DNA of 64,000 nucleotides from Kitasatospora xanthocidica (GTDB taxonomy: Bacteria > Actinomycetota > Actinomycetes > Streptomycetales > Streptomycetaceae), in NCBI RefSeq assembly GCF_014656195.1, contig NZ_BNBY01000014.1, forward strand, positions 109,531-173,530, given 5' to 3'. The number at the start of each line of letters is the position of its first letter. The first letter of the stretch is position 1. Below the pieces are notes generated by a model, which had not been told where the DNA came from, ran no database searches, and saw only the letters and a program-made list of their open reading frames with translations. Of the stretch, positions 37,575 through 38,152 are shown in pieces. A program made the position numbers and the translations under genes.

Positions 37575-37778
37575 TCAGACAGCGGTGACGTTCTCCGCCT
37601 GCGGGCCCTTCGGGCCCTGGGTGACGTCGAAGGTGACCGTCTGGTTCTCCTCCAGCGAACGGAAGCCGTTCGCGTTGATGGCGGAGTAGTGAACGAAGAC
37701 GTCGGGGCCGCCGCCCTCCTGGGCGATGAAGCCGAAGCCCTTCTCAGCGTTGAACCACTTGACGGTTCCCTGAGCCAT
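37575..37778 (-). CDS. cold-shock protein (CspA family)
   Basis: A 67-residue OB-fold protein: [20 protein letters not shown] with RNP1 KGFGFI, and DVFVHYSAI as RNP2, ending VTAV. It binds single-stranded RNA and DNA as an RNA chaperone and antiterminator in the cytoplasm. ATG 37778 is set by a strong AAGGAGAACGGC. It is followed on the other side by mqnA, the same neighbour as in S. coelicolor. The gene has a long leader (about 180 nt) with an internal terminator. Confidence 0.95.
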
Positions 37779-37889
37779 GCCGTTCTCCTTGCGATGCGTG
37801 TCGGGGACCACACCGTGTGGCTCCCGGTCCGCTGCGCTGATCGCCCTGCCTCCGGAACGAGTCCGAAGTTTTTCGATATTGCTGAAAAA

Positions 37890-37925
37890 CTACAAAAAGC
37901 CTGCGGTTACATGCTCCGCAGGCTT
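37890..37925 (-). terminator. intrinsic terminator/attenuator inside the cold-shock leader
   Basis: On the minus strand AAGCCTGCGG (37925-37916) and CCGCAGGCTT (37906-37897) form a perfect 10-bp stem with a 9-nt loop, followed at once by TTTTTGTAG. A promoter (TGGTCG, 17 bp, TAGCGT at 37969-37964) lies just upstream, so a transcript of about 65-70 nt would end here, 115 bp before the cold-shock start. It is either an attenuator or the end of a small RNA. Confidence 0.75.
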
Positions 37926-38152
37926 CAAGTACTGCAAGGGGAATCAAACTGCAACTGAGGGCAACGCTAGCATGCGGCCGCTGTGACGACCAGAGGTCGC
38001 TTTCGGCACGGAAGGCGCGTGTCGTAAGGCCGGGAGCGGGCGCGGAAAGGCGTGTTGGGGGCGCGTGGTGGCGTGTCGGGCGGCCGGTGCGAGCCGTCGT
38101 GAACGGCGGGCATACGCTGCGGGGAGGCGCACGAACAGCAAGGAGCGGCTCA

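Follow-up and report, generated by a model that had tools for sequence, protein, structure and literature searches.

A conserved box-hairpin leader of cold-shock protein genes in Streptomycetaceae and its possible role as a promoter-proximal attenuator

In Escherichia coli, the cold-shock protein gene cspA has a long leader with a 5' cold box that is common to the cspA paralogues, and autogenous control has been proposed for it. To our knowledge, this leader contains no promoter-proximal intrinsic terminator. The leader of Corynebacterium glutamicum cspA has been assigned to the Rfam family RF01766 by its authors (PMC3890552 and PMC4046766, available portions). For Bacillus subtilis, the accessible part of one report describes mutations lying within or beside cold-shock boxes; one of these, in the cspC leader, increased a reporter from 4360 to 9450 units (PMC8307031). 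The same part of that report presents CspB and CspD as favouring termination at man and lia sites, with the reverse at pyr; loss of both proteins raises readthrough at man and lia and lowers it at pyr (PMC8307031). E. coli CspD, as far as the available portion of its description goes, binds transcripts, weakens intrinsic termination and raises readthrough (PMC9765468).

Our present results describe the leader of a csp gene located in a 64-kb stretch of DNA, the whole of which is called the window here. This csp gene encodes a protein with a cold-shock domain (Pfam CSD, E 4.8e-32). In the order of transcription, the following features were recognized:

37987..37992, minus strand: possible -35 element TGGTCG, at a spacing of 17 nt to the -10 hexamer (by eye)
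37964..37972, minus strand: extended -10 element TGCTAGCGT, from the TGnTAnnnT pattern in relatives
37948..37956, minus strand: box AGTTGCAGT with the nucleotides predicted to be transcribed first, near-invariant in the alignment
37927..37947, minus strand: linker, holding a second UUGCAGUAC copy in the window orthologue type (30-orthologue alignment)
37897..37925, minus strand: terminator-like hairpin with a stem of 10 bp and the 9-nt loop AGCATGTAA (scan, fold and covariation)
37890..37898, minus strand: T-rich tail TTTTTGTAG, overlapping the last two stem bases
37828..37850, minus strand: second conserved leader block GGCAGGGCGATCAGCGCAGCGGA (identity in orthologues)
37804..37825, minus strand: hairpin before the ribosome-binding site (predicted fold; identity of the stretch only 0.822)
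37785..37790, minus strand: Shine-Dalgarno sequence AAGGAG (by eye; the last 17 leader nucleotides are 0.974 identical)
37575..37778, minus strand: csp coding sequence, 67 amino acids (Pfam PF00313)

The predicted start, +1, was put at 37956, the eighth base past the -10 hexamer TAGCGT. Relative to it hairpin and tail together span +32 to +67, in agreement with the original prediction. The perfect 10-bp stem with a T-rich tail, which that prediction had claimed for the csp leader, was found as well: on the minus strand AAGCCTGCGG (37916-37925) and CCGCAGGCTT (37897-37906) form ten uninterrupted pairs around a loop of 9 nt. A G+C-rich stem-loop with a U-rich tract directly behind it, the usual description of an intrinsic terminator, is present here. 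The csp ATG (37778) lies about 112 nt past the end of the tail at 37890. The whole leader (37779-37960) is predicted to fold more stably than its shuffles (z -3.32).

How well the hairpin stands out depends on the scan. A stock terminator scanner, which allows loops of at most 8 nt, returned no site in the window, the loop of the hairpin being 9 nt long, and a loose scan of the window gave seven sites against 5, 7 and 5 in three shuffles, that is, no excess. A strict scan of the 64 kb (8-bp stem with at least seven G-C pairs, at least five T in 8) yielded two sites, one of them the leader hairpin, where 30 shuffles that preserve dinucleotides gave 0.07 on average; when the strict scan was relaxed in two steps, the same two sites came back, with 0.13 and 0.43 in shuffles. 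The second strict-scan site (37458-37483) lies just 3' of the csp stop codon, and because so strong a terminator follows directly, csp is probably a one-gene unit here. We take this gene to be the orthologue of Streptomyces coelicolor SCO4505, from the gene order beside a menaquinone gene; PF02621 was found in the neighbour of the window csp. In the available portion of a study of S. coelicolor, six csp genes including SCO4505 are translationally induced by heat shock, and SCO4505 is abundant without stress (PMC6009599). If the presumed orthology holds, termination in the leader therefore cannot be near complete.

Conservation of the arrangement upstream of other actinobacterial csp genes, named in the original prediction as a check, was found throughout the sampled family and in part of the class. 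A model of the leader, R1, was built from nine leaders of the own genome and three relatives of the genus. In the own genome (9.27 Mb) it has six matches, at the six csp genes, and it matches in 61 of 61 genomes and 17 of 17 genera of the family, with up to seven copies per sampled genome. Judged from named relatives, this family is Streptomycetaceae and the genus probably Kitasatospora. Across the class, 56 of 296 genomes and 26 of 115 genera have a match, 28 of the 56 genomes belonging to the own family and 28 lying outside it. With a further model, R2 (E <= 0.001), matches in a phylum-wide sample came from 11 of 296 genomes, each of them a member of the class, the share of that sample lying outside the class not being shown. 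The sequences from which R1 and R2 were built necessarily match their models, and the R1 family and class counts as well as the R2 phylum count come from stricter filters, by which weak matches are lost. A protein search of the own genome gave ten matches. Six are csp genes with the common leader, two (L007 and L008) are csp-like genes without it, and the remaining two (L009 and L010) were rejected as csp, their translations showing false matches.

The element is closely associated with csp. By tblastn, a csp gene is present at 96 of 98 R1 loci checked, a set of 58 loci from the family and class listings and 40 hand-picked ones, mostly outside the family or low-scoring, with some duplicates included. 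One of the two exceptions (L122) is followed by a DEAD-box helicase (Pfam DEAD, E 1.2e-26), the other (L126) by an open reading frame of 175 amino acids (566-1093) without a Pfam match. A helicase-like motif downstream of the leader was seen in 28 entries, duplicates included, among them the own-genome copies L002 and L006; in these two, in L053, L054 and in others the DEAD-box helicase-like motif lies 600-1040 nt past the promoter. These observations, in which Pfam was applied to L313 only, suggest csp-helicase units at many of these leaders.

When the best 80 named csp loci were inspected, a loose box pattern occurred within 420 nt upstream in 50, of which at least three (L192, L194 and L204) are misplaced. 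Among these best 80 loci, GTTGCAGT is present in Kitasatospora, Streptomyces, Streptacidiphilus, Parafrankia, Ornithinimicrobium and Pedococcus; it is absent from L181 and L182, which are of the same type and come from Streptomyces. Terminator-like sites were counted in the 300 nt upstream of the same 80 loci, in a scan by which long loops are missed, and occurred in sense orientation at 42 of 80 and in antisense at 4 of 80, with 2 of 80 in a downstream control; outside Streptomycetaceae, several of the sense matches lie away from the leader position.

The conserved box at the predicted 5' end is absent from the original prediction. It is near-invariant in the alignment A2, from which 12 short opposite-strand matches were removed ahead of counting. 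Thirty orthologues were aligned, namely the window gene together with those 29 foreign loci that ranked best in a search of 70 genomes of the genus. Identity is 0.998 for box and linker and 0.993 for the hairpin loop, compared with 0.941 at third codon positions and 0.665 in upstream DNA; CTGGTCG at the -35 region is conserved in the same alignment. The 27-nt stretch from the second block is 0.977 identical against 0.875 for the stretch before it. This block, GGGCGATCAGCGCAGCGGA, lies between the terminator and the ribosome-binding site and has variants elsewhere, for example GGGCGATCATCGCGGCGAC; one regular expression written for it matches 47 of 170 distinct box leaders. The linker itself folds no better than shuffles (mean z +0.33 in 58 distinct leaders), and a small linker helix GGUUC/GAACU, possible by eye, was dropped as it did not beat them.

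The box lies close behind the predicted promoter. Among 79 distinct leaders, TGnTAnnnT stands no more than 25 nt upstream of the box in 76, and the distance from the end of the -10 element to the box is 5-8 nt in 74 of the 79. In the own genome, the combined pattern of extended -10 element and box has five matches, each at one of the six csp leaders, and none when it is read backwards as a control; the sixth leader carries GTCGCAGT in place of the exact pattern. The 61 family genomes contain 191 matches against 6 in the reversed control, and csp follows in 19 of 20 further matches that were fetched from beyond the R1 matches listed, the exception being L303. Viral contigs were also considered as carriers of the element. 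The 46 exact pattern matches in them, of which one has an extended -10-like site and none a csp motif within 600 nt, were taken as chance.

Covariation supports the stem. In an alignment of 76 distinct rows fitted to the model, which favours the structure, 97.1% of stem cells are paired; double-changed cells number 83 (24.0 in shuffles) and further pair types 19 (11.6). None of 500 shuffles was as high on four of the five measures, the covariation score among them; pairs with double changes numbered 6 against 4.5, with 13 of 500 shuffles as high. When the stem was slid, just 31.6-50.6% of cells were paired. The anatomy of promoter, box and hairpin, its conservation, this covariation and the association with csp thus all emerge from comparison of sequences.

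Tails and loops are more variable in one case and less variable in the other than might be expected of a simple terminator. Among the 170 distinct box leaders, which also underlie the second-block count above, the T-rich tail is kept in 60 of 96 window-type leaders. The other 36 have at most four T in 9, for example TCTCGTCGT, with the hairpin kept, and many of these interrupted tails are in loci named Streptomyces. In the other leader types, at least five T in 11 are present in 56 of 57 rows. ATGTA occurs in 11 of 57 distinct hairpin loops against 0.3 in shuffles, relatedness being ignored. Two leaders (L294 and L297) keep the box without any terminator visible by eye, and in two others (L295 and L310) the terminator looks weak. 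Since the box is kept where none is visible, its role seems to be distinct from that of the terminator.

We propose, with a probability of about 40%, that the conserved csp leader element is a promoter-proximal attenuator combined with a box for a trans-acting factor, of which Csp is the best candidate. RNA polymerase would start at or beside the box AGUUGCAGU and meet an intrinsic terminator about 60-67 nt past the start. We infer termination in vivo with partial readthrough, so that some complexes would release a short leader RNA and the rest would read through into csp. Box and linker would be the likely binding site of the factor, presumably a protein, which when bound would determine how large a fraction reads through or what becomes of the leader. 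With Csp as this putative ligand, the outcome would be autogenous control of csp and, in some copies, also of the following DEAD-box helicase gene. The arrangement perhaps limits the amount of cold-shock protein made, and we lean slightly towards negative feedback as the sign of the Csp effect. Of the original prediction, the terminator-like hairpin in the csp leader and its conservation stand; readthrough dependent on Csp is plausible by analogy. The box AGTTGCAGT bears no resemblance to known U-rich Csp sites. A box free for binding is an assumption, because predictions leave it unpaired only about half the time; the mean unpaired probability is just 0.52 in 58 distinct leaders, which lowered our confidence, and in the predicted fold of the window the box is paired with its own second copy UUGCAGUAC. 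Loops that are more alike than termination requires also speak against the attenuator reading. Taken further, the leaders could form a Csp-sensing RNA family, with no matching Rfam entry, that would drive feedback across the cold-shock genes of actinomycetes, in which the 5' box of each nascent leader reads free Csp and the released short leaders of several paralogues jointly serve as a Csp sponge; this extension, which we regard as rather improbable, would if true link csp and csp-helicase units into one homeostat.

The most serious competitor, doubtful as we hold it to be, dispenses with Csp sensing: the box would be an initial-transcribed or promoter element, the hairpin a fixed attenuator or a 5'-stability element of the mRNA, and output would be set by the promoter and a constant leak. 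The box-to-promoter spacing of 5-8 nt in 74 of 79 leaders suits such an arrangement, as do the box that stays where no terminator is visible (L294 and L297) and the hairpin that stays where the tail is interrupted; the spacing nevertheless varies, and the conserved linker and hairpin loop are left unexplained. Alternatively, the terminated RNA of about 67 nt could be a trans-acting small RNA with box and linker as its seed and sibling copies in each genome, an idea that agrees with the conserved 5' end and 3' terminator anatomy and with the six copies in the own genome and up to seven in sampled family genomes. We consider it improbable, since the element is hardly found away from csp (copies without csp number 2 of 98 R1 loci and 1 of 20 pattern matches); small RNAs derived from 5' UTRs, on the other side, need no free-standing copies.

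Two classical forms of attenuation fare worse. In a riboswitch-like or RNA-thermometer attenuator, the 5' part would pair with a terminator arm as antiterminator, and by eye the UUGCAG of the window could indeed pair with CUGCGG of the 5' arm. Over 59 distinct leaders at 37 C, however, pairing between the 5' region and the arm is 0.447 against 0.503 in shuffles, the 5' region folds more weakly than shuffles (mean z +0.65), and the linker is, as above, no more structured than they are. No conserved antiterminator helix exclusive with the terminator was found by shuffle tests in the 58-59 distinct leaders, and this reading appears very unlikely. Least credible of all, to the point where we give it almost no weight, is leader-peptide attenuation through a mini-ORF, MNFVCA or MNFVCAC, which begins in the linker of some csp leaders. 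Short Cys-containing MN-x-V-CA peptides with an early stop make up 10 of 23 distinct linker readings; the rest are in different frames or continue past that point, the window type, not among these rows, has no such ATG, and no ribosome-binding site is seen by eye before the mini-ORF. A conserved in-frame short ORF with start and stop was not found in the 23 readings.

Compared with known systems, the leader is analogous to the E. coli cold-box leader in the position of its box, at the predicted 5' end, and in the sharing of this box by paralogues in its own genome; the sequence of the box differs from that of E. coli. Contrary to the C. glutamicum cspA leader, the window leader has no match to RF01766, and no Rfam family, the cspA thermoregulator RF01766 included, reached its gathering score in the 64-kb window. 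At a threshold of E 10, the stretch from 37700 to 38100 gave just two matches, mir-1422 (E 0.055) and OmrA-B (E 4.1), both below gathering. Conserved boxes in csp 5' UTRs are shared with B. subtilis cspB and cspC, for which the available part of the report describes no leader terminator (PMC8307031). A bound protein that sets terminator readthrough, as proposed here, would be common to the B. subtilis PyrR attenuator (PMC8307031, available part); the csp leaders differ in that no antiterminator helix was found in 59 distinct leaders and in a ligand that is putative.

Premature transcription units of Streptomyces, defined by Term-seq, are likewise transcript ends in 5' UTRs and come from the same bacterial group (PMC8269248 and PMC8914203, available portions); a word search of the main text of both papers did not find csp named. 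In S. clavuligerus, according to the accessible text, the count of premature ends began no closer than 70 bp to the start (PMC8269248), so an end near +67 would have escaped it. A literature search, with supplements and most subscription papers outside its range, gave no description of a box-hairpin csp leader. Word searches found no mention of csp or cold shock in the main text of PMC8780764, PMC6742748, PMC12207403 and PMC2965389, only an unrelated "cold" in PMC11678152, and neither cold box nor antitermination in PMC9800685.

The leader is a short and conserved entry point for studying how actinomycetes adjust the amounts of their abundant RNA chaperones. It also provides a setting in which to ask whether Csp proteins favour or counteract intrinsic termination at the genes that encode them. 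Annotation of csp leaders can draw on the box-hairpin model, and Term-seq data already at hand can be examined again for ends less than 70 nt from the start.

Other csp leaders among those inspected differ from the window type. Seven loci (L185, L193, L198, L204, L206, L207 and L209) represent another Streptomyces csp leader type, in which the exact box is absent and, by eye, TGTCGTGGTTCG is followed by an early hairpin and a T run. In Nocardioides and its relatives (L187-L191, L196 and L210), TGCAAGTTCC was seen by eye near the presumed start of the csp leader, and several leaders of this group have a hairpin ACGCC...GGCGTTTC, likewise recognized by eye. The Nocardioides-group leaders are apparently a diverged form of the box-hairpin layout.
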